NCBI RefSeq assembly: GCF_014873145.1
Contig: NZ_JADBEK010000001.1
Span: forward strand, 4,278,001-4,342,000
Direction: 5' to 3'
DNA from: Nonomuraea angiospora
GTDB lineage: Bacteria > Actinomycetota > Actinomycetes > Streptosporangiales > Streptosporangiaceae
DNA: 64,000 nucleotides
Below the pieces are notes generated by a model. It had not been told where the DNA came from. It did no database searches and saw nothing but the letters and a program-made list of their open reading frames with translations. A program made the translations under genes and the position numbers. How positions within the stretch are numbered: the stretch's first letter is position 1; each line of letters begins with the position of its first letter. Below are positions 27,162-64,000 of this stretch, in pieces.

Positions 27162-28736
27162 CTAGCGCTCCAGGATCGCCTCCTCGAAGTCGAGCTGCGC
27201 CATCACGTCGCGCATCACCTCGTCGTCGAGGCGGCGTTCGTCGCGCAGCCGTACGAAGACCTGTCGTTCGGCCTGGAGCATGTCGCGGCGCAGGCGGCGG
27301 TAGAGGGCACTGGGGGTCTCCGCACCACCCTGCCCCGTGCCGCCGCCCAGGCGTTCCCAGGCGCTCAGCGAGCGGCGCCAGGACTTCTCCCTGAGCTGGT
27401 CGATGACCTGCTTCTGGATCTCGTCGGGCTCGCCCTGCTCGGCGATGAGCCGCGTGAGCTCCTCCAAGCCGGCCTCCAGCGCGGCCTGCTGGGCCGCCGC
27501 CTCGGCCAAGCGGTCTTCGTACTGCTCCTGCTCGCTCGACACGCGCAGCCGCTTGATCAGCGCGGGGAACGTGGTGCCCTGGATGAGCAGCGTGCCGATC
27601 ACGGTCGTGAACGTCAGGAACAGCAGCATCGCGCGGTCGCGCGCCGGGATGTCCGGCGGGATGGCGAAGGCCGCCGCCAGTGACACCACGCCGCGCATGC
27701 CCGCCCAGCCGAGGATCACCGTCTGCGGGCCGGTGGGCACGTTGCTCCTGCGCAGGAGCTTCATCAGGCGCGTCACCGCGAACAGCCACACGAACCGGCT
27801 GACGATCGTCACCGCCAGCACGGCGGCGGCGTAGCCCGCGACCGCCCACGGGTTGTAACCGGAGATGCCCTGCACGACGGTCGTCAGCTGCAGCCCGATC
27901 AGGGCGAACACGACCGCTTCCAGGAAGAAGTCGGTGACCTTCCACACGGCGTCGGACACCAGCCGGGTGCCGAACCCCTGCAGGTGCATGCGGTTGCCCA
28001 GATAGAGGCCGACGATCACGACCGCGATCACGCCCGAGGCATGCACGCTCTCCGCCGCGAGGTAGGTGGCGAACGGGATCAGCAGCATCAGCGTGTTCTC
28101 GACCAGGGAGTCGCGCGTGTGCCTGAACAGCCAGGCCAGCGCGAACGCCACCACCAGCCCGATCGCCACGCCGCCCGCCGCGGCGAGCGCGAAGTCGCCG
28201 AGGCCGTGCCACACGTCGAAGGTGCCGCCCAGCGCGGCCCCGACGGCGACCCGGTAGAGCGTGAGCGCCGTGGCGTCGTTGAACAGGCTCTCGCCGACCA
28301 GGATCGTCAGCGCCCTGCGCGGCAGGCCCAGCCGGCGGCCGACCGCGACGGCGGCCACGGCGTCAGGCGGCGCGATGATCGCGCCCAGCGCGAACGCCAG
28401 CGCGAGCGGGAGCTGCGGCAGCAGCAGGTGGACGACCAGCCCGATGGCGGCGGTGGTGAACAGCACGAGCCCGATCGACAGCAGGGCCACGGCCCGCTTG
28501 ACATCACGCAGGCGCAGGTAGGAGCTGTCGAACGCGGCGGAGTAGAGCAGCGGCGGCAGGAAGACGTACAGCACGAGCTCCGGCTGCAACGGCACCGCCG
28601 GCACCAGCGGCGACACCAGCAGGCCGGCGGCCACCAGCAGGAGGGGAGCGGGCCAGCCCTTGCGCCGGGCGACGGCCGCGACGCCGATCGCGCCGCCCGC
28701 CACCAGCAGCAGCTGCAGGCCCATGGTCGGGTTCAC
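27162..28736 (-). CDS. CPA1-family Na+/H+ antiporter
   Basis: A 524-residue cation/proton antiporter. About 12 membrane helices span residues 5-400. Family motifs: FLPPLLYSAAFD near 58, the ion-site GAIIAPPDAVAAVAV near 117 (the A-P-P-D-A form of NhaP/CPA1), GESLFNDATALTLY near 148 with the conserved Asp, and GWAGMRGVVSLAAAFAIP near 345. The C-terminal ~120 residues are a charged, helical cytoplasmic domain (ELTRLIAEQGEPDEIQKQVIDQL...) likely to regulate transport. Exchanges Na+ or K+ for H+ in pH and salt homeostasis. Confidence 0.94.
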   Translation of the reverse strand: MNPTMGLQLLLVAGGAIGVAAVARRKGWPAPLLLVAAGLLVSPLVPAVPLQPELVLYVFLPPLLYSAAFDSSYLRLRDVKRAVALLSIGLVLFTTAAIGLVVHLLLPQLPLALAFALGAIIAPPDAVAAVAVGRRLGLPRRALTILVGESLFNDATALTLYRVAVGAALGGTFDVWHGLGDFALAAAGGVAIGLVVAFALAWLFRHTRDSLVENTLMLLIPFATYLAAESVHASGVIAVVIVGLYLGNRMHLQGFGTRLVSDAVWKVTDFFLEAVVFALIGLQLTTVVQGISGYNPWAVAGYAAAVLAVTIVSRFVWLFAVTRLMKLLRRSNVPTGPQTVILGWAGMRGVVSLAAAFAIPPDIPARDRAMLLFLTFTTVIGTLLIQGTTFPALIKRLRVSSEQEQYEDRLAEAAAQQAALEAGLEELTRLIAEQGEPDEIQKQVIDQLREKSWRRSLSAWERLGGGTGQGGAETPSALYRRLRRDMLQAERQVFVRLRDERRLDDEVMRDVMAQLDFEEAILER

Positions 28737-55152: not shown

Positions 55153-55204
55153 GCCGTCGACAGCGGCTGGAGGTGACGGGCGCCGTCGAGAGCGGCTAGA
55201 GGTG
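55153..55204. repeat. 29-bp-period direct repeat
   Basis: GCCGTCGACAGCGGCTGGAG (from 55153) recurs with changes from 55182. The second copy includes the histidine phosphatase stop codon, so this interval has undergone a second local duplication. Confidence 0.7.
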
Positions 55205-55855
55205 GCCGACGTCGTTGAACCGGACGAGCCCCGAGCCGTCCCAGACGGAGACGGAGGCGTTCAGCACCGGCGCGAACTTCAGCACCGCGCCCAGATCCGC
55301 GTCCGGCCCGCCCCCGAGGACGTGGCGCAGGCCCAGCACCACCGAGTCGTGGGCGACGATCAGCACCCGCCGCCCGGCCGCGCGCTCGCGCAGGTCGGCG
55401 AGAAGGTCACGGAGCCGCACCACGACGTCGGCCAGCGACTCGCCGCCGGGCGGCCGGAAGGCGTAGGCGCCCTCGGCCTCCCGCCGCGCCATCTCCTCGG
55501 GAAAGCGCTCCCTGATCGCGGCCACGTTGTAGCGCGCGAACGCGCCCGCCTCCTGGTCCCTGAGCCGCCTGTCCACGGTGAGCGGCAGCGGCCCGGCGCC
55601 CCACGCCCGCAGCGCCACCCGCCACGTGTCGAGCGCCCGGAGGTAGGGCGAGCACCACACCACCTCGGGGGTCTCGGCGGCGGGCAGGCCCGCCAGCGAC
55701 CGCCCGAACGCGGCGGCCTGCGCCCGGCCCAGGTCCGTCAGCGTGACCTCGTCGTCCCCGCGCTCGTAGACCAGCGGCGCCGACCCGGCCTCCCGGTGGG
55801 CGAGGTTGGCCTCGCTCTCCCCGTGTCGCACCGCCATGATCCGCGTCGGTCCCAT
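55196..55855 (-). CDS. Histidine phosphatase (phosphoglycerate mutase-like) protein
   Basis: A 219-residue branch of the histidine phosphatase superfamily. RHGESEAN near residue 10 holds the phospho-acceptor His, CSPYLRALDT near 68 the second Arg, and VAHDSVVLGLRH near 168 the second His; a Glu in GAFARYN/LRDQEAGAF is the probable proton donor. Four active-site residues are intact. ATG 55855 lacks a clear ribosome-binding site; ATG 55837 (MAVRHGE) is an alternative. Upstream there is a palindrome. Substrate is a phosphate ester, unidentified. Confidence 0.88.
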   Translation of the reverse strand: MGPTRIMAVRHGESEANLAHREAGSAPLVYERGDDEVTLTDLGRAQAAAFGRSLAGLPAAETPEVVWCSPYLRALDTWRVALRAWGAGPLPLTVDRRLRDQEAGAFARYNVAAIRERFPEEMARREAEGAYAFRPPGGESLADVVVRLRDLLADLRERAAGRRVLIVAHDSVVLGLRHVLGGGPDADLGAVLKFAPVLNASVSVWDGSGLVRFNDVGHL

Positions 55856-55907
55856 CCCGACATCTTGTCACGGACCCTCCATCCAATTACGGTCAGGCCC
55901 GTTATAT

Positions 55908-56051: not shown

Positions 56052-56383
56052 CGCCACCTGCTCATGCTGCGCCTCCGGCCCGGCGCTGCTCGGGATCAGG
56101 GACGTTCGCGGCTGCAATGGGTGATCACCTTAGCGAGGGCCTCGGCGACGTCGCCGGCCGCCTCAGGGGCGTCCATGAGCATGGCCTGGCGTACCCACAC
56201 CACGGTCCTGGCGGCCTCCTCGGCGCCCGGGCACGGCTCGGCGCGGGCGCCCTCGGCGGTGAGGGCGGCCATCGTGCCGAGCGGCGGGTAGCCGGCGTCG
56301 AGCGGCACCCCCTCCGCGGCCATGGCCGCCAGCGCGAACTCCCGGTCCACCCCGGCGTCGAGGCGCAGCATGAGCAGGTGGCG
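56052..56383. repeat. Inverted 24-bp repeat: aminotransferase fragment facing its relative
   Basis: CGCCACCTGCTCATGCTGCG plus four more bases is found on the plus strand at 56052-56075 and, perfectly inverted, at 56360-56383 inside the DegT-type gene. In both places it encodes D-(A/S)-R-H-L-L-M-L-R-L in the corresponding frame. The gene-free 55,857-56,095 stretch therefore holds a plus-strand scrap of a related aminotransferase; its outer parts are unrecognisable. Confidence 0.75.
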
Positions 56384-57271
56384 CGAGTCGCGCGTCGTGC
56401 CCTCGGGCTGCGGCACCACGGTCACCTCGGGGACATGGGCCAGCTCGCGTTCCAGGGCGGCGCAGAATGCGTTCCTGCGCTCGATCTCCTCGTCGAGGCG
56501 GTCGAGCCAGGGCAGCAGGAGCGCCGCCTGGATCTCGGTGAGGCGCAGGTTCCAGCCGACGGACGGGTGGCCGTACCAGCGGCCGCCGGGCGCGCGGCCG
56601 ACGTTGCAGGCCGACCAGACGCGCTCGTGCACGGCCTGGTCGCGGCAGACGATGAGGCCGCCCTCGCCGGCGGTCATCGCCTTGCTCGCCTGGAAGCTGT
56701 AGACGCCCGCGTCGCCCAGACCGCCCACGGGACGGTCCCGGTACGTGGCGCCGTGCGCCTGGGCGGCGTCCTCGACGACCGCGAGGCCGTGCCGGGCGGC
56801 CAGGTCGTTGAGCGGGTCCATGTCGGCGGGGCTGCCCGCCAGGTGCACGGGCATGATCGCCGCGGTCCTGCCGGTCACCGCGTCCCGCACGGCTCCCGGC
56901 GACAGGTGCAGGTCCACCGGGTCCACGTCGGCGACGACGGGGACGGCGCCGGCCAGCAGCACGGCGGTGGCCGAGGCCACGAACGTGTACGCCGGGACGA
57001 TCACCTCGTCGCCCCTGCCCACGCCGAGGCCGCGCAGCGCGGCGAACAGGCCCAGCGTGGCGTTGCCCACGGCGACGCCGTACGGGACGCCGGAGCGGCT
57101 GGCGAACGCGGCGGTCAGGTCCGCCACCACGGAACCGCCCTGCGTGGCTCCCCACAGGCCGCTCTCGAGCACCTTGGTGACGAGCTCGCGCTGCGCGGGG
57201 TCGAGGGGCGGCGGCCAGGCGGGCCAGGAGGCCGAGCGGACAGGAGTGCCGCCGTGGATGGCGAGCGTCAC
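56096..57271 (-). CDS. DegT/DnrJ/EryC1/StrS-type PLP aminotransferase
   Basis: A 391-residue sugar or cyclitol aminotransferase-like enzyme. N-terminus LAIHGGTPVR, cofactor-binding GNATLGLFAALRGLGVGRGDEVIVPAYTFVASA near 70-95, VVEDAAQAHGATY near 160 (Asp, His), and the PLP Lys in SFQASKAMTAGEGGL near 195. GTG 57271 with AAGGGA upstream; an earlier GTG 57289 would overlap the preceding stop (GTGA). Such enzymes transfer amino groups to keto sugars/cyclitols, suggesting that the surrounding amidohydrolases act on sugar or cyclitol derivatives. Confidence 0.9.
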   Translation of the reverse strand: MTLAIHGGTPVRSASWPAWPPPLDPAQRELVTKVLESGLWGATQGGSVVADLTAAFASRSGVPYGVAVGNATLGLFAALRGLGVGRGDEVIVPAYTFVASATAVLLAGAVPVVADVDPVDLHLSPGAVRDAVTGRTAAIMPVHLAGSPADMDPLNDLAARHGLAVVEDAAQAHGATYRDRPVGGLGDAGVYSFQASKAMTAGEGGLIVCRDQAVHERVWSACNVGRAPGGRWYGHPSVGWNLRLTEIQAALLLPWLDRLDEEIERRNAFCAALERELAHVPEVTVVPQPEGTTRDSRHLLMLRLDAGVDREFALAAMAAEGVPLDAGYPPLGTMAALTAEGARAEPCPGAEEAARTVVWVRQAMLMDAPEAAGDVAEALAKVITHCSRERP

Positions 57272-57285
57272 GGGAGATCGTCCCT

Positions 57286-57999
57286 TCACGAGTGGCCGAG
57301 CAGGCGGGCCAGGTTGGCGCCCTGGATGAGGGCGCGGTCAGTGTCGGTGAGCGGGGCCAGGGCGACGCGGCCGTAGCCGGTGCGCAGGTCGAGGAAGCAG
57401 GCGTCCGAGCCGAACAGCACCCGCTCGGCCCCCGCCAGCGCCGCCAGCCGGGCGATCCACCGGCCGGTCATCTTCGAGCCGCACGTCTCCAGATAGACGT
57501 TGGGAAGGTCGGCCACGAGGCGGGCCGCGCGGCCGAACCCGTACGCAAAGAGCCCGGTGTGCCCCATGATCAGCGGAACGTGCGGGTGCCGGGCCGCGAC
57601 GGCGGCGAACTGGGCGGGGTCGCTCCAGGGCGAGTCCGTCTGGCCGTGCGCCAGGACCGGCAGGCCGAGCCGCCAGACCGGCTCGTACAGGGGGTCGTCG
57701 AGGCGGCACTGGTGCACGTCGGGGTGGAGCTTGACCCCCCACACGCCGTCGCGGACGAGCGGCGTGCGGTGGTGCGGGTTGTAGACCTGCCACACCCCGA
57801 ACCGGCCGGGGAAGCGTCCCGCGATCTCCATGGCCAGCTCGTTGCCGCGCACCGCGTCGGGGCCGACGGCGAGCAGGTGGCTGATGCCCATCGCGGTGAC
57901 GCCGATCCGGTCCATCGCGGCCACGAGGTGTTCGGCGGTGGGATGGGGGATGAGGAAGTCGGGCCAGGTGCCGACGTGGCCGTGGGCGTCGAGGATCAC
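57286..57999 (-). CDS. Amidohydrolase_2 family hydrolase, metal-site intact (arm A)
   Basis: A 237-residue TIM-barrel metal hydrolase. Ligands in order: HGH (DAHGHVG, residues 5-8), VKLHPDVH near 95 in place of the carbamylated Lys region, His in LAHGQTD near 128, His in MGHTGLF near 155 and Asp in FGSDACF near 205. This is the PF04909-type layout of decarboxylases and lactonases (ACMS decarboxylase relatives). GTG 57999 overlaps the stop of the degenerate homologue (GTGA) and GGAGG stands 7 nt upstream. Next to a DegT aminotransferase and a secreted propeller. Confidence 0.88.
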   Translation of the reverse strand: MILDAHGHVGTWPDFLIPHPTAEHLVAAMDRIGVTAMGISHLLAVGPDAVRGNELAMEIAGRFPGRFGVWQVYNPHHRTPLVRDGVWGVKLHPDVHQCRLDDPLYEPVWRLGLPVLAHGQTDSPWSDPAQFAAVAARHPHVPLIMGHTGLFAYGFGRAARLVADLPNVYLETCGSKMTGRWIARLAALAGAERVLFGSDACFLDLRTGYGRVALAPLTDTDRALIQGANLARLLGHS

Positions 58000-58685
58000 A
58001 GCAGCGCCTCCAGCGTGCCTGCGGCGATCCGCTCGATGTCCTTCTCGGGCAGGTCGAGGTGGTCGAGCAGGAAGCGGGGGCCGCAGTCGTCGGACACCGG
58101 CGCGCCCGTGCCGAACACCAGCCGCTCCGCCCCGAACCGCGCCGCCAGCCACTCGACGCCGCCCTGGGTGTTGACGGTGCCGATCTCGGCCCGCACGTTC
58201 GGCGCCTCGGCCATCAGCTCGGCCAGCGCGCGCAGGCGGCGGTAGCCGGGGTTGAGGACGAGCAGGGGCAGCTCGGGCAGGTGCTCGGCGAGGTGGCGGA
58301 GCTGGGCGGGCGAGGTCTCGTCGAGGTCGATCGCGACCGGCAGGCCGATCTCGGCCAGCCACCGCAGGGTCCACGGTCCCGTGAGGTCGAAGCGGTGGCG
58401 TTCGGGACAGAGCCTGATCATCCGTACGCCCCACGCCGCCACCTCGTCCGGCCCGTCCGGCTCCCCGGCCCCCGGCACCACGACGGGGACGGGGATGAGC
58501 CGGGGGTTGTCGAGCGCGAGCAGTGCCTCGTTGCCCGCCTTGGGGTCGGAGTAGAGGCTCAGCGTGTGGGTGACGCAGGCCAGGCCGATGCCCAGCCGGT
58601 CCATCTCGTCCCGGGGGTCCGTCGGCAGGTCGTCGAACGGCACGGGACCGATGAGCCGGTGGGCATCGATCACATATTTCGGCAC
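57996..58685 (-). CDS. Amidohydrolase-fold pseudoenzyme (arm A)
   Basis: A 229-residue relative of the neighbouring amidohydrolase. The barrel is recognisable (VIDAHRLIGPVP, ACVTHTLSLYSDPKAGNEALLAL, LPLLVLNPGYRRLRALAELM, ERLVFGTGAPVSDD), but the metal ligands are missing: HxH is HRL, the first later His is replaced in IDLDETS, the next by LNPGYRR and the Asp by FGTGAPVSD. It should not bind metal and probably serves as a subunit or substrate-binding partner. It is read just before the intact enzyme (GTGA overlap), as in arm B. Confidence 0.82.
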   Translation of the reverse strand: MPKYVIDAHRLIGPVPFDDLPTDPRDEMDRLGIGLACVTHTLSLYSDPKAGNEALLALDNPRLIPVPVVVPGAGEPDGPDEVAAWGVRMIRLCPERHRFDLTGPWTLRWLAEIGLPVAIDLDETSPAQLRHLAEHLPELPLLVLNPGYRRLRALAELMAEAPNVRAEIGTVNTQGGVEWLAARFGAERLVFGTGAPVSDDCGPRFLLDHLDLPEKDIERIAAGTLEALL

Positions 58686-58703
58686 AGACCGAAACTAGCG
58701 AGG

Positions 58704-60671
58704 TTACGGAGTGACGGTCAAGGCCGGGCAGCGCGGATCGAGCCGGATCCTGGCCAGGTCGCGGCCCACCAGCCCCCAGGCCCGCCAGGAGCCGGGCTCG
58801 AAGTGCAGCTGCGGGTTGGTGTACCACTCGTCACCGAGCCCGGTGGCCAGCAGCTTGGCCTCGGCGCCCAGCTCGTACGCGTTCCCGCCGCCGAAGAACG
58901 TGGACGCGAACACCCTGCCCCGGTGCACGGTCAGCTCGCCGTACCCGGAGAGCTTGCCCTGCCGCACCACCGCCTTGGTGGCCAGGTCCAGGGCGATCCA
59001 GGTGCCCGAGTCGCGCTTGTAGACGCCGTACAGCAGCCCGTCGTGCACCTTGACGTCCTGGAACGTGCGGTGCCCCGGGATCGGGTCCACCTGCCAGAGC
59101 ACCTTGCGGGCGCGCAGGTCGAAGGCGGCCACGGACGCGGACGTCTTGACCGGCGGGGTGCCGCCCCCGCCGAGCACGTCGCCGCCCAGGTAGACGACGC
59201 CGCCCCGGGGGTCGACCGACAGGCTCATGAGGCTCTGGTCGGGGATGACGCCCTCGTAGACGTCGATGCGGCCGGTGCGGGGGTCGATCACGGACAGGGC
59301 GCCGTTCAGCTTGGCGCCGAGCGGGGCGCTGGCGACCACGAGCTTGTCGGTGGCGGGGTCGTACTCGATGTCCCAGGGGCGCTGCTGGCCGTGGCCCAGG
59401 TAGCCGAGGCTGCGCACCCGGTCCGTACGCAGGTCGACGGAGACGATCTGCCCGCTCGGGTAGATGGCGGCGTAGATCTTGTCGCCCCTCCGCACGAGGT
59501 CCTTCGGCTCGCCGGGCATCCGGAACCTGCGCTTCTCGCCCGTGGGCAGGTCGCGCACCTCCATGGAGAAGTGGCCGCCGATGTAGACGGCGCGGTTGGG
59601 CACGAGGAGCATGCTCTGCGGCCGCTCCGGGCCGCTGGGCAGGCCGGCGTCGATGAGGTCGACGAACTCGGACTCGCCGGTGCGCAGGTCCAGCCACCAC
59701 ACGCCGCCGCTGCCCGCGAAGCCGAGCATGGTGTGCTCGTCGAGCTGCTGCAGCCGCCTGGTCTCGTCGCCGGGCGACGGCGCTTCGGCGACCTTGGTGA
59801 AGGTGGTCTCGCCCGTGCGGTAGCGGTGGACGGCGCCGTCGGGGCGGGAGGTGGCGTAGACGGTGTCGTCACCGGCCACGGTGAGCATGTCGATCGTGCC
59901 GCCCGGCAGGGTCGCCCGGCGCTCGTCCGTGCCGTCCGAGCGGATGTCGATCAGCGTGTCGCCGGCGGCGGCCAGCACCCGGTCACCGTGTACGGCGACG
60001 GCGCCGATGCCGGTCGGGGCGGCGGCCAGCTCCTTCACCGTGCCGTCCGCGCGGGTGATCCGGACGAGCCTGCCCTTGTCGAGCAGCCCCGCGTAGACGT
60101 AGGTGGCGTCGGCGGCGACCGCGCGCACGTACCGCTCGCCCTGGACCAGCACGCCGAAGTCGCGCACCGCGCCCGTGCCCGGCACGTACTCGCGGACCCG
60201 GCCGTCCGGGTAGGTGCCGGCGTAGAGGGTGCCGTCGGGCGCGGCGGCGAGGCTCCAGACGAAGCCGCCGTTCTTCCCGAACGACGCCAGCCGCTCCACC
60301 GCGCCCGTGGCCGGGTCGAAGCTGTAGAGGTCGGGCACCGGGTAGGTGCCGACGTAGATCTTGCCGCCGGACACGGCCGTGGCCCAGGCGCCCTCCGCCT
60401 CACCGGCGGCCGGGCCGTCGGGCAGGGTGACGCTCCTGACGACCTTGCGGGTGGCGAGGTCGATGTCGGCCAGCACGGGGGGCTTCAGGCCGCGGGTCAC
60501 CACGTAGGCGTGCCCGTCGAGCACGGTGGCGCCCACGATGGCGCCGGTGACCGACGCCGGGCCGAACCGCTCCACGGCCGGGGCGTCACAGGCCGTCGCC
60601 GCCCGCGCGACCGGGCCGGTGAGGAGTGCGGGTAAGAGCGCCGACAGGATTACCAGGAGGGATCGGAGCAT
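58704..60671 (-). CDS. Secreted beta-propeller protein (arm A)
   Basis: A 655-residue exported protein. The signal peptide (MLRSLLVILSALLPALLTGPVARA, cleavage near 24) precedes ~14 blade-like repeats of PQQ/WD40-type sequence (KIYVGTYPVPDLYSFDPATGAVERL; TLYAGTYPDGRVREYVPGTGAVRDFG; AIYPSGQIVSVDLRTDRVRSLG). It is a homologue of the Tat-exported protein at 62359, sharing segments such as AAFDLRARKVLWQVDPIPG with AAFDLRTRKLLWQHEPIPG. It probably binds or acts on a polysaccharide outside the cell; a polysaccharide-lyase-like propeller role is conceivable. Start ATG 60671 with GAGG upstream. Confidence 0.82.
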   Translation of the reverse strand: MLRSLLVILSALLPALLTGPVARAATACDAPAVERFGPASVTGAIVGATVLDGHAYVVTRGLKPPVLADIDLATRKVVRSVTLPDGPAAGEAEGAWATAVSGGKIYVGTYPVPDLYSFDPATGAVERLASFGKNGGFVWSLAAAPDGTLYAGTYPDGRVREYVPGTGAVRDFGVLVQGERYVRAVAADATYVYAGLLDKGRLVRITRADGTVKELAAAPTGIGAVAVHGDRVLAAAGDTLIDIRSDGTDERRATLPGGTIDMLTVAGDDTVYATSRPDGAVHRYRTGETTFTKVAEAPSPGDETRRLQQLDEHTMLGFAGSGGVWWLDLRTGESEFVDLIDAGLPSGPERPQSMLLVPNRAVYIGGHFSMEVRDLPTGEKRRFRMPGEPKDLVRRGDKIYAAIYPSGQIVSVDLRTDRVRSLGYLGHGQQRPWDIEYDPATDKLVVASAPLGAKLNGALSVIDPRTGRIDVYEGVIPDQSLMSLSVDPRGGVVYLGGDVLGGGGTPPVKTSASVAAFDLRARKVLWQVDPIPGHRTFQDVKVHDGLLYGVYKRDSGTWIALDLATKAVVRQGKLSGYGELTVHRGRVFASTFFGGGNAYELGAEAKLLATGLGDEWYTNPQLHFEPGSWRAWGLVGRDLARIRLDPRCPALTVTP

Positions 60672-60744
60672 GGGCGCACCTCACGTTCATTGCTGAGCAA
60701 TTATGGGCCAGACCGTAACTTTATAAGCACAGTTCGTCAATGGC

Positions 60745-61590
60745 ATGATGTGCGGCATGGCGATTGAGGATGGGTCCGGTATTCCGTTCGACGCGTGGCG
60801 CCTGGTCGGCGGGCTGGAGGTGGCGCTGGACGTGGACGTGCTGTTCGGGGCCTATCCCGACCGCGACGGCCCGCCCGGCGCCCCGGAGCAGGTGCTGCGG
60901 CTGCTGAGCGGGCACCGGATCAGGGCGGCGGCGGTGGCGAGCCTGCGGGCCGCGCTGTTCGACGTGCGCTCTGGCAACGACGAGCTGATCACACGTGCGG
61001 CCCCGGAGGTCGCCCCCGCCGGGACCCCGGCTGCGGAGGTCGCCCCCGGCGCGGCCGTGGACCCGGAGGTCGTCCCCGTCGGGGTCGTGGATCTGCGTGA
61101 CCCGGTCGGCGCGGCGCGCGAGCTGGAGCGGCTGGCCGCCGAAGGCGTCCGGGCCGTCCGGCTGTTCCCCGACGAGCAGGGCGTCGAGGCGGGCTTCCCC
61201 TCCGTCAGGCACGTCGCGCGCCGGGCGGCGCGGCTCGGCCTGGTGGTGCTGACCGGCGGTGACGTGCGCAGGTTCTGGCAGCCCTTCGCGGGCCTCGGGG
61301 CCGAGGTGGTCTTCCTCGACACGCACTTCTACCACCTGGGCGACTTCCTGGTGGCGGCCGCGGAGGAGCCCGGCTTCCACACCTCCACCCGCCTGCTCAA
61401 CTCCCCCGACGCGCTGGAGCTCGCCGCCGCCGAACTCGGCGCCGACCGCCTCCTGTACGGCTCGCGCGCCCCCCACTACGAGCCGCTCGTGCCCCTCCTG
61501 CGCCTGGCCACCAGCGGGTTGAAGCCGGAGGAGATCGCCGCCGTGGCGGGCGGCAACGCGGAAAGGCTCCTGAGGAGGCCGCAGTCATGA
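60745..61590 (+). CDS. Amidohydrolase-fold pseudoenzyme (arm B)
   Basis: A 281-residue counterpart of the arm A pseudoenzyme: FDAWRLVG matches IDAHRLIG (HxH lost completely), RSGNDELI matches KAGNEALL, VVLTGGDVRRFW stands where the His is expected, FLDTHFYHLGD replaces the next His segment, and LLYGSRAPHYEP replaces the Asp segment. There is an inserted Ala/Pro-rich loop (~88-110; EVAPAGTPAAEVAPG). Start is one of ATG 60745, 60748 or 60757, after a likely TATAAG -10 at 60722-60727. The next gene overlaps by ATGA and has an intact site. Confidence 0.78.
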   Translation: MMCGMAIEDGSGIPFDAWRLVGGLEVALDVDVLFGAYPDRDGPPGAPEQVLRLLSGHRIRAAAVASLRAALFDVRSGNDELITRAAPEVAPAGTPAAEVAPGAAVDPEVVPVGVVDLRDPVGAARELERLAAEGVRAVRLFPDEQGVEAGFPSVRHVARRAARLGLVVLTGGDVRRFWQPFAGLGAEVVFLDTHFYHLGDFLVAAAEEPGFHTSTRLLNSPDALELAAAELGADRLLYGSRAPHYEPLVPLLRLATSGLKPEEIAAVAGGNAERLLRRPQS

Positions 61591-62315
61591 TCATCGACGT
61601 GCACGCCCACTGGGGCCCGTGGTTCTTCACCATGGACGTGGCCGAGGCCAACCTCGCCACCATGGACCGCTACGGCATCGACCGCGCGATCGTCTCCGCC
61701 ACCGAGGCCGTCATCTACGACGCCGCCGCCGGAAACCGCGCCCTGGCCTCCTACCTGGAGACGCAGGAGCGCCTGCTCGGCTACGTCACGGTCAACCCGC
61801 GCCGGCTGCGCGAGGCGGAGGCGGACCTGGCGGCGTACCTGCCGGGCGGCCGGTTCGTCGGCGTCAAGATCCACACCGACTACACGGGCTCGCCGGTCGG
61901 CTCCGCGCAACTGCGTGAGGCGCTCACGCTGGTGGCCGCCACCGGGCGGCCCGCGCTCGTGCACACCTGGGGCACGTCCGTGCTCGCCCTGGCGGAGGTC
62001 TGCGCCGACATCCCGGACCTGCGGGTGATCGCCGGGCACATGGGCGCCGACGGGTTCCGGTACGCCATCGAGGCCGCGAACGCCTGTGACCGCCTCTACC
62101 TGGAGCCCTGCTGGTCACACTTCCCCGCCGGCCGCATCGCGGAGGTGGTGGCGGCCGTGGACCCGGGGCAGCTGCTGTTCGGCACGGACGCGACGCTGAT
62201 CGACCCGTCGTCGGCGTTCGGGGCGGTCGCGGCGGCCGGGCTCACCGGCGCGACCGCCGAGCGGATCGCCTGGCGCAACGCCGCGGCGCTCTTCGCTCTG
62301 GACATTACGGCCTAG
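61587..62315 (+). CDS. Amidohydrolase_2 family hydrolase, metal-site intact (arm B)
   Basis: A 242-residue TIM-barrel hydrolase with a complete site: VHAHWG at residues 5-10, VKIHTDY near 92, VHTWG near 125, GHMG near 152 and FGTDATL near 200. It is the arm B counterpart of the enzyme at 57286-57999 (both read ...R-x-x-x-G-x-x-x-x-N-P...VK-H; E-x-C; LFG(T/S)DA). Overlaps the pseudoenzyme stop by ATGA, so the two polypeptides are made in tandem, favouring a heteromeric complex. A promoter for the next gene lies in its last codons. Confidence 0.88.
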   Translation: MIIDVHAHWGPWFFTMDVAEANLATMDRYGIDRAIVSATEAVIYDAAAGNRALASYLETQERLLGYVTVNPRRLREAEADLAAYLPGGRFVGVKIHTDYTGSPVGSAQLREALTLVAATGRPALVHTWGTSVLALAEVCADIPDLRVIAGHMGADGFRYAIEAANACDRLYLEPCWSHFPAGRIAEVVAAVDPGQLLFGTDATLIDPSSAFGAVAAAGLTGATAERIAWRNAAALFALDITA

Positions 62316-62326
62316 CCCGTTATAGC
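62299..62326 (+). promoter_or_regulatory. Promoter for the Tat-exported propeller gene
   Basis: TGGACA (62299-62304), 16 nt, TATAGC (62321-62326), overlapping the last codons of the amidohydrolase. The expected start is about 62333, giving a leader of ~26 nt with AAGGGAG before ATG 62359. Confidence 0.55.
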
Positions 62327-62358
62327 GTGCGGGCCAACTTCACCAAGGGAGCCCGCGC

Positions 62359-64000
62359 ATGATCCCCCGCCGTCGTTTCCTCCAGGCGGCCGCCGCGACC
62401 ACGGCGGCCGCCACGCTCACGGCCCCGCCGGCCCGCGCCACCGTCCACAAGAAGGTCCAGCCCGAAGGCACCCTCACCGACCTGGGGCCGGCGAGCGTCG
62501 CCAGCCCGCTGGGCAACGGCGAGTTCGTCGGCGGCGTGCTCTACGCGGGCTCGCGCGGCCTGTCGCCCAACGTGGTCGGCGCGTTCGACCTCGCCCAGGA
62601 TTCGGTCACGACCCATTTCGACATCCCGACCGGCGTGGGCATCTGGGCGATGTGCAAGGTGGGCACCGACGTCTACGTCGGCACCCACGCGAGATCCGAC
62701 CTGTACAAGATCGACACCGTCGCCGGCCAGGTCACCAAGGTCGCCGAATACCCCGACCACTACATCTGGACCATGGCTTCCTCCCCCGACGGCAAGGTCT
62801 ACCTGGGCACGTCGGAGCCGGGCCGCGTCCGGGAGTACGACCCGGCCACCGGCACGAGCCGCGACCTGGGCGAGCCCGCCCCCGGCGAGGCGTACGTCCG
62901 CAGCATCCAGGCCGACGACACCTACGTCTACGCCGGGATCGGCGCCAACGCCCACCTGATCGCCATCGACCGCAGGACCGGCGAGAAGCGCGAGCTCCTG
63001 CCCTCAGCCGTGGCCGACCGCGACTGGGTCTCCAGCATGGGCATGTCGGATACCCACCTGGCCGGCGGCATGAACTCGCTGGGCGAGCTGCTCGTGCTGG
63101 AGAAGGCCGCGCCGCAGAACTACAAGGTCGTCAAGGCCACCGCGGCCGGCGAGAAGTACGTCGTCGCGGTCCTGATCCACGACGGGTACGTCTACTTCGC
63201 CGGCCGCCCCTCCGGCACGTTCTACCGCTACCACCTGGCCACGGAGAAGCTGGAGGTGCTCGGCGTCCCCTACTTCGAGGCCCTGACCCACCGCCTGCTC
63301 GCCCACGAGGGCCGCATCTACGGCATCCAGGACAGCGCGGTCTTCGTCTACGACCCGGCGACCGGCTCCCTCGAGTACGTCAACCTCGTCCAGCGCGGCT
63401 TCAAGGCCGCACCCGAGGAGCCGATGTCCGTGCACTCCGACGGCCGGCGCGTCTACGTCGGCGGCAAGGGCGGCGCCGACGTCCACGACCTGGCGACCGG
63501 CAAGGTGACCCGGCTGGGCATCTCGGGCGAACCGAAGACGCTGCTCACCGTCGGCGACACCACGTACCTGGGCGTCTACACCCAGGCGGCCCTGTACGCG
63601 CACCACCGCGGGAAGACCGAGGCCGACCTGGTCGCCCGCACCGGCAACCAGCAGGACCGCCCGCGCGACCTCGCCTACGACGCCACGACGGGCCTGATCG
63701 TGATGCCCACCCAGCCGGAGCCCGGCCACATGAACGGCGCCCTCTCGCTGTACTCGCCCGGCAAGGGCACGTACGAGACCTACCGGCCGGTGGTGGAGCG
63801 CCAGACCGTCTACTCGGTCGTCGCCCGGCACGGCGTCGCCTACCTGGGCACCCTCATCCAGGAGGGCCTCGGCCTGCCGCCGGTCACGACGACCGCCCGC
63901 CTGGCCGCCTTCGACCTGCGCACGCGCAAGCTGCTCTGGCAGCACGAGCCGATCCCCGGGGCCCGCATGATCTCCTCGCTCGCCCTCGGCAGGAACGGCA
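62359..64000 (+). CDS. Tat-exported beta-propeller protein (arm B; 3' end outside window)
   Basis: A protein of more than 547 residues running off the window. The N-terminus RRRFLQAAAATTAAATLTAPPARA is a twin-arginine signal, unlike the Sec-type signal of its arm A homologue. The rest is a chain of propeller blades (DVYVGTHARSDLYKIDTVAGQVTKV; KVYLGTSEPGRVREYDPATGTSRDLG; YVYFAGRPSGTFYRYHLATEKLEV). AAGGGAG lies 7 nt before ATG 62359. Tat export implies folding in the cytoplasm, perhaps with a bound cofactor. Confidence 0.85.
   Translation, partial: MIPRRRFLQAAAATTAAATLTAPPARATVHKKVQPEGTLTDLGPASVASPLGNGEFVGGVLYAGSRGLSPNVVGAFDLAQDSVTTHFDIPTGVGIWAMCKVGTDVYVGTHARSDLYKIDTVAGQVTKVAEYPDHYIWTMASSPDGKVYLGTSEPGRVREYDPATGTSRDLGEPAPGEAYVRSIQADDTYVYAGIGANAHLIAIDRRTGEKRELLPSAVADRDWVSSMGMSDTHLAGGMNSLGELLVLEKAAPQNYKVVKATAAGEKYVVAVLIHDGYVYFAGRPSGTFYRYHLATEKLEVLGVPYFEALTHRLLAHEGRIYGIQDSAVFVYDPATGSLEYVNLVQRGFKAAPEEPMSVHSDGRRVYVGGKGGADVHDLATGKVTRLGISGEPKTLLTVGDTTYLGVYTQAALYAHHRGKTEADLVARTGNQQDRPRDLAYDATTGLIVMPTQPEPGHMNGALSLYSPGKGTYETYRPVVERQTVYSVVARHGVAYLGTLIQEGLGLPPVTTTARLAAFDLRTRKLLWQHEPIPGARMISSLALGRNG

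Follow-up and report, generated by a model that had tools for sequence, protein, structure and literature searches.

Conserved pairs of intact and degenerate amidohydrolases and a putative operator-marked regulon in Nonomuraea angiospora

We analyzed a window of 64,000 nucleotides (nt) from Nonomuraea angiospora (G000:C1:4278001-4342000 of the 13.09-Mb chromosome), near the end of which two gene arms diverge. Arm A encodes a propeller (PropA), a degenerate amidohydrolase (PseA), an intact amidohydrolase (AmhA), and a DegT aminotransferase (DegT1), while arm B encodes a second degenerate amidohydrolase (PseB), a second intact one (AmhB), and a second propeller (PropB) (Table 1). Gene coordinates and Pfam matches confirmed the positions, families, and divergent arrangement that an earlier note on this DNA had proposed. 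The homology that it claimed between the arms was recovered as well, with 31% identity between AmhA and AmhB, 31% between PseA and PseB, and 35% between the propellers. As claimed, the Pse and Amh genes overlap by 4 nt in both arms; the same overlap occurs in a third Pse/Amh pair of this genome and at the AmhA/DegT1 junction. The arms are not mirrored, as the note had it, because their gene order differs: the propeller is first in arm A and last in arm B.

Table 1. Features of the two-arm locus (positions in the window)
Feature	Position	Strand	Evidence or remark
Histidine phosphatase (PGM-like), probable regulon member	55196..55855	-	Pfam His_Phos_1; operator 55887-55904 upstream
Operator-like palindrome before the phosphatase gene	55887..55904 (G000:C1:4333887-4333904)	.	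2 mismatches
DegT1 aminotransferase	56096..57289	-	PF01041, 308.8 bits
AmhA, intact amidohydrolase, pair A	57286..57999	-	PF04909, 76.1 bits; metal residues present
PseA, degenerate mate of AmhA	57996..58685	-	PF04909, 55.3 bits; metal site lost
PropA, propeller	58704..60671	-	DUF6923; Sec-like signal (judged by eye)
Operator-like palindrome, divergent PropA/PseB promoter	60701..60718 (G000:C1:4338701-4338718)	.	2 mismatches; conserved there in relatives
PseB, degenerate mate of AmhB	60745..61590	+	PF04909, 45.8 bits; metal site lost
AmhB, intact amidohydrolase, pair B	61587..62315	+	PF04909, 91.6 bits; metal residues present
Operator-like palindrome before PropB	62305..62322 (G000:C1:4340305-4340322)	.	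3 mismatches
PropB, propeller	62359..64000 (true end 64308, 308 nt beyond the window)	+	Tat-type signal

All four amidohydrolase-like proteins pass the Amidohydro_2 (PF04909) cut-off of 26.4 bits. Judged from sequence, AmhA and AmhB hold the complete set of metal residues (HxH, His, His, and Asp), and this set is gone from PseA and PseB, in agreement with the catalytic death that the earlier note had ascribed to the Pse proteins; the two kinds are called live and dead hereafter. Residues were counted in split proteins and in the first 30 of 34 aligned rows of natural Pse-Amh fusions (P0159-P0162 left out). All metal residues were kept in 52 of 53 live domains, and the site was kept in 0/54 dead domains (24 split and 30 fused). 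Nine catalytic positions were invariant in the split live domains (23/23); the fused live halves retained every His and Lys of this set (30/30), and Asp, Glu, and Cys were each retained in 29/30. None of the dead domains (0/54) has the second His, the Lys, the helix-6 His, the second His of the Lys motif, or the Asp, whereas the strand-5 His remains in 1/54 and the first His in 11/54; the residues that replace the catalytic ones are themselves fairly conserved. NCBIfam provided a name for none of PseA, AmhA, PseB, and AmhB, and the source annotation for both halves is 'amidohydrolase family protein' (best 120 of 331 relatives). Because both halves bear this name, the live/dead pairing is hidden by annotation.

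The genome contains 20 distinct Amidohydro_2 genes (21 matches, with PseB matched twice), and the only ones adjacent to another are the six genes of the three pairs; the juxtaposition is therefore not due to chance. Elsewhere, an apparently separate second pair type was observed, consisting of a live and a partly degenerate Amidohydro_2 protein (L146:8428-9920; L088:9157-10658; L160 and L161, at ~19.8-21.2 kb). Its dead partner retains the first His and the Asp, and it groups with unpaired genes in the tree described below.

The conservation of the pairs was examined in relatives. Named relatives of the Pse proteins of the window were mostly from Nonomuraea (best 120 of 331). Across 59 genomes, including the source genome, the propeller profile was matched in 29 and the Pse profile in 28; within the genus, the Pse profile was matched in 27 of 36 genomes. 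All 19 loci of the A/B type (L069-L087) contain PseA, AmhA, PseB, AmhB, and a gene for a DapA-like protein, and DegT1 is present in 18, the contig of the remaining locus stopping short of it. A neighborhood survey had been named beforehand as a possible refutation of the earlier note; it showed the Pse/Amh neighborhood to be conserved. In a class-wide sample, in which seven candidates were scored per genome, 34 of 394 genomes were matched, some of them weakly and partially. The genes of the A/B loci stand in another order in Streptomyces, Kribbella, Actinomadura, and Jiangella, namely importer-Pse-Amh-DegT1, DapA-like, and Pse-Amh-DegT2 with the regulator gene Reg1. When named genomes were scanned with fusion sequences, 38 loci were obtained, including loci from Chloroflexi, Armatimonadetes, Zipacnadia, Lentisphaeria, Spirochaetales, and a Bathyarchaeota bin; those of Spirochaetales and Chloroflexi also contain DegT, permease, and Gfo/Idh genes. 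In total, 71 pairs were collected from 60 scanned loci (three being repeats of regions fetched twice), with Pse first in 69 and the two fused in 10. The exact 4-nt overlap was found in 51 of 57 split pairs, and the other six show gaps of 8-56 nt under the chosen start codons. Two further observations concern gene content. In a Spirochaetales locus, glucosamine-isomerase-like, ROK-family, and URO-D-like proteins are encoded behind the Pse/Amh pair (L192:10090-13229), and a luciferase-like monooxygenase (L177:12690-13661) lies within the Actinomadura atramentaria cluster, with a similar start sequence in a Streptomyces locus (L170).

Pse and Amh occur in one open frame in two Jiangella loci (L140 and L151). 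Using one Jiangella fusion as the query, we found 42 proteins at E values up to 1e-20, 41 of which are 502-652 aa long, with identities of 28-100%; they come from Jiangella, Dactylosporangium, Micromonospora, Phytohabitans, and metagenomes, and fused proteins are also present in Armatimonadetes and Lentisphaeria loci. The alignment, which took in 34 of the 42 matches, places the dead half N-terminally and the live half C-terminally, with the weakest row (P0162) aligning poorly in the N-terminal half. The halves of P0156 from Phytohabitans kaempferiae are 51% identical to PseA and 65% identical to AmhA; therefore, the pair of arm A exists elsewhere as a single polypeptide. AlphaFold2 models of two natural fusions each reached a predicted template modelling score (pTM) of 0.91, with both halves confidently placed, and thereby predict a stable Pse-Amh interface. 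The earlier note had named two outcomes that would speak against it, the lack of an interface and a separate metal site in Pse; no metal site is left in the 54 dead domains, and an interface is predicted, for the natural fusions only. A phmmer search with the fusion P0121 against solved structures gave no match. VIA-align rows are nearly confined to the live half, and structure therefore says little about the dead half.

Phylogenetic analysis covered 122 domains; 16 of the 71 pairs, which came from ten near-copy loci, were excluded, and the three pairs of the window genome were added. A single group (100/97) comprised 55 live rows, and in the three loci with the second pair type both live and dead rows sat among unpaired genes. 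The main type was then represented by a tree of 104 domains, from which 18 of the 122 rows had been dropped (six unpaired genes, the second pair type, and Lentisphaeria, Spirochaetales, and Bathyarchaeota rows); here live and dead were parted by one branch with 100/100 support, which was present in 200/200 bootstrap trees. Distances among dead partners track those among live partners (r = 0.953 for 58 pairs, with 0/2000 permutations as high), a correlation that shared ancestry alone raises. The trees and distances indicate that live and dead domains of the main type diverged once and were duplicated as pairs.

Median omega was 0.38 for PseA, 0.27 for PseB, and 0.38 for PseC, compared with 0.33 for AmhA, 0.29 for AmhB, and 0.23 for AmhC, all rough values from GC-rich codons. 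At the sequence level, these figures show purifying selection on Pse. They also bear on the idea that the degenerate genes are functionless, decaying duplicates, with which the lost metal site would agree. Pse omega (0.27-0.38) is close to that of the live partners, and open frames and pairing are maintained across families and phyla; decay is in practice excluded by these observations, and we give it virtually no credence.

The arms belong to a larger unit. Beyond the window end lie genes for a DapA-like protein, two permeases, a solute-binding protein, a second DegT aminotransferase (DegT2), and the divergent regulator Reg1, followed further out by a second DapA-like protein, an epimerase, a Gfo/Idh protein, and HyuB/HyuA. 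Profile matches in this extended locus include DHDPS, DegT, and SBP_bac_1, and the regulator has a winged-helix C terminus. DegT1 and DegT2 (287.1 bits) both far exceed the DegT cut-off of 19.8 bits, and their pyridoxal phosphate lysines were located by eye in the motifs SKAMTAGEGG and WKHITCGDGG. DegT is thus not confined to arm A, the arm to which the earlier note had assigned it. A HyuA/HyuB (hydantoinase/oxoprolinase) pair at L216:5228-9029 follows the epimerase and Gfo/Idh genes, perhaps in the same operon. The third Pse/Amh pair, at 8.095 Mb of the same chromosome (G000:C1), has as neighbors a heparinase II/III-like protein, Gfo/Idh, an importer, a SIS protein, a BadF-type kinase, an FAH-type hydrolase, and a regulator that is a BLAST relative of Reg1. 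The regulators at L216:456-1703, L007:7524-8840, and L177:19474-20721 have in common an N-terminal region whose start resembles GVVGPHDLV, as well as a C-terminal winged helix, and one of them matches GTP cyclohydrolase III weakly. They appear to form a regulator family that Pfam does not name.

A palindrome, TTACGGTCnnGACCGTAA, was first read before the epimerase operon. With up to three mismatches, it occurs 22 times in the source genome, compared with nine times for the reversed control. Seven of these sites fall within 4333887-4351288 (17 kb, 0.13% of the chromosome), as do all four sites with up to two mismatches. Three of the seven precede the phosphatase gene, PropB, and the epimerase gene, respectively; one separates PropA from PseB, another separates DegT2 from Reg1, and two are at the importer operon, one of these overlapping the degT2 end. 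An additional three-mismatch site in the window (27599-27616) is outside the cluster. In relatives, TTACGGTCnnGACCGTAA gave 72 matches in 19/19 A/B loci (control 1) and 63 matches in 25 of 31 further loci (control 2), of which four are from outside Actinomycetota, two are Nonomuraea regions also counted in the 19, and one Jiangella region appears twice. Because relatives share ancestry, these matches represent conservation and not independent events. In 18 C loci, one match was found versus two in the control. The operator matches indicate that both arms are parts of a larger regulon extending beyond the window, with an ATP-binding cassette (ABC) importer, a DapA-like aldolase, a second DegT, and a regulator, and we infer that Reg1 binds the operator. 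Two other candidates were rejected: the palindrome ATTGCTnAGCAAT / ATTGCTGAGCAAT (window 60689-60701), which adjoins the operator and was exact only in own-genome loci among 215, was dropped for TTACGGTCnnGACCGTAA, and the box GGnCCAGACCGTAA, seen in relatives, proved to be part of the TTACGGTCnnGACCGTAA operator and not a separate element.

The propellers behave differently from the pairs. Three of the 19 relatives (L076, L077, and L082) have no close PropA or PropB, yet both Pse/Amh pairs are kept, and in genome G003 the propellers are only pieces (L071, G003:C12:482862-485615) beside two intact pairs. These loci rule out the propellers as core members. More distant propellers (24-31% identity) are found near many clusters, and profile searches for an enzyme class matched generic propellers only. 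The propellers are thus variable extras that probably act outside the cell. The composition that the earlier note regarded as a unit therefore does not hold: the propellers vary, DegT has a counterpart, and the true unit is the larger, importer-containing regulon.

We consider it likely that each Pse/Amh pair is one enzyme of two paralogous barrels, with the dead Pse as an obligate partner, within one import and catabolic regulon. Amh would hold the metal and perform the chemistry, and Pse would be a catalytically dead barrel that shapes or completes the live site, so that Amh activity would presumably require Pse. The two arms would supply two such enzymes to one regulon, whose compound would be imported by the ABC transporter and then broken down, with DegT transaminases, a Gfo/Idh dehydrogenase, and DapA-type aldolases catalyzing neighboring steps. 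The obligate heteromers proposed in the earlier note are well supported on genomic grounds, namely the overlaps, the fusions, the single live/dead split, and the joint folding of two fusions.

A different reading of the same pairing is that Pse is an independent, metal-free enzyme for a separate step, co-transcribed with Amh, and that the fusions merely link consecutive reactions. Fusions of consecutive enzymes are common, and Pse does keep conserved residues of its own. However, Pse stands beside Amh or is fused to it in the 71 pairs, the two duplicate together, and a fixed relative placement of the halves is predicted for two fusions; we regard this reading as quite improbable.

The A-, C-, and fused-type Pse proteins have a GYRxxR motif in the first turn of helix 6, placed there from the sequence and the predicted helix; it is present in 46 of 54 dead domains. 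By analogy with Arg239 of the neighboring subunit in ACMSD, this motif might donate an arginine to the live site, a suggestion to which we give somewhat less than an even chance. Pse could instead be a physical partner that serves as a stabilizer, scaffold, or ligand sensor and contributes no live-site residue, which we find quite possible without favoring it. Precedents are pseudo-dihydroorotase, which is reported to stabilize Pseudomonas ATCase (PMC7053772), and prozyme, which is reported to activate trypanosome AdoMetDC (PMC5201418). This reading also accords with the absence of GYRxxR from the B-type Pse and with the distinct conserved residues in the dead pocket, which would be expected of a sensor site. 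It is opposed by the same-family ACMSD, which is described as completed in trans by an arginine, and by the arginine pair that follows the corresponding position in those 46 domains. Because the B type and 28 of 58 dead tree rows lack GYRxxR, we propose trans-completion for some types only.

Several observations weigh against the proposal of an obligate live/dead enzyme. The support for heteromers is genomic and modelled, not biochemical. The fusion models were judged by pTM, without coordinates or predicted aligned error, and known Amidohydro_2 homodimers may have influenced the prediction. No Pse match was found in 9 of 36 genomes of the genus, and the loci from distant phyla are metagenome bins, in which contigs may be misplaced. 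With long branches included, support for the group of 54 dead rows was weak (61/51), and neither the Bathyarchaeota dead partner nor the second pair type fell within it. PseC is less constrained than AmhC (omega 0.38 versus 0.23). At the GYRxxR position of other types, the B-type Pse has DTHFYHLGDF. Finally, with regard to the pathway, the best solved relative of DegT2 is an octulosonate transaminase, not a cyclitol enzyme.

DegT1 is closest among solved structures to 5w70, an L-glutamine:2-deoxy-scyllo-inosose aminotransferase (E = 1.1e-60). The solved relatives of both DegT proteins, together with the importer, Gfo/Idh, and DapA-type aldolases, suggest with low confidence the breakdown of an amino- or keto-cyclitol or sugar; that an imported amino- or keto-sugar or cyclitol is catabolized is accordingly a tentative assignment, leaning toward doubtful. 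A search of the scyllo-inosamine literature yielded nothing decisive. The cluster might instead make an aminated sugar or cyclitol natural product, since DegT1 resembles aminocyclitol and 3-amino-5-hydroxybenzoate (AHBA) biosynthetic transaminases and the Actinomadura cluster has a luciferase-like monooxygenase. The two-permease importer with its solute-binding protein, the DapA-type aldolases, and the dedicated operator argue against biosynthesis, as do the ROK kinase and the glucosamine-isomerase-like protein of the Spirochaetales locus, and we think it unlikely. Returning to catabolism, the broadest form of our proposal is an ancient, multi-phylum class of metal-dependent amidohydrolases in which an asymmetric live/dead heterodimer has a single site, completed in trans by the dead barrel, and was duplicated as a unit for successive enzymes of a new, operator-defined catabolic regulon acting on an amino- or keto-cyclitol or sugar. 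This combination may well be incorrect in some part, and we offer it as a possibility that falls a little short of being favored.

As the earlier note had stated, no described system of this composition was found in the literature searched; nothing relevant appeared on a live/dead Amidohydro_2 pair or a catabolic cluster of DegT with an amidohydrolase, with subscription journals thinly covered. The inositol cluster of Thermotoga maritima encodes a dehydrogenase and a metal hydrolase of keto-inositol, and we know of no dead partner in it. We liken it to the Pse/Amh regulon by description only, as an inositol regulon that includes an importer (PMC3750489). ACMSD, gamma-resorcylate decarboxylase, and LigW share the family and fold of Amh. 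ACMSD is reported to be active only as a dimer, in which the neighboring subunit supplies an essential arginine (PMC11650718, PMC9021598). Unlike Pse/Amh, ACMSD-type decarboxylases are homodimers of live subunits of ~330 aa without a dead partner. Pseudo-dihydroorotase is a member of the amidohydrolase superfamily. Pseudomonas aeruginosa ATCase is reported to require this catalytically dead protein (PMC7053772), but there the live partner is not paralogous to the dead one and the complex is a dodecamer. In the trypanosomatid pairs AdoMetDC-prozyme and DHS-DHSp, a live enzyme is reported to be activated by a dead paralogue (PMC5201418, PMC3663545). Pse resembles a prozyme in being a paralogue that has lost its catalytic residues and is conserved with its live partner. 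However, the trypanosomatid pairs have other folds and belong to a single eukaryotic lineage, whereas the Pse/Amh split spans several bacterial lineages, with co-duplication and fusions. To our knowledge, known live/dead enzyme pairs are mostly single, lineage-bound cases. The dead paralogue as a partner is a known concept; what is new, as far as could be seen, is the Pse/Amh family, its age, the co-duplication, the fusions, and the regulon, which the operator delimits as a putative catabolic unit in Nonomuraea, Streptomyces, Kribbella, Actinomadura, and others. One live/dead split extends across many actinomycete families and other phyla (metagenome bins), both partners were duplicated together, and fused forms also exist; the transition from a homodimer to an obligate live/dead heterodimer is thus open to comparative study and to tests on small proteins.

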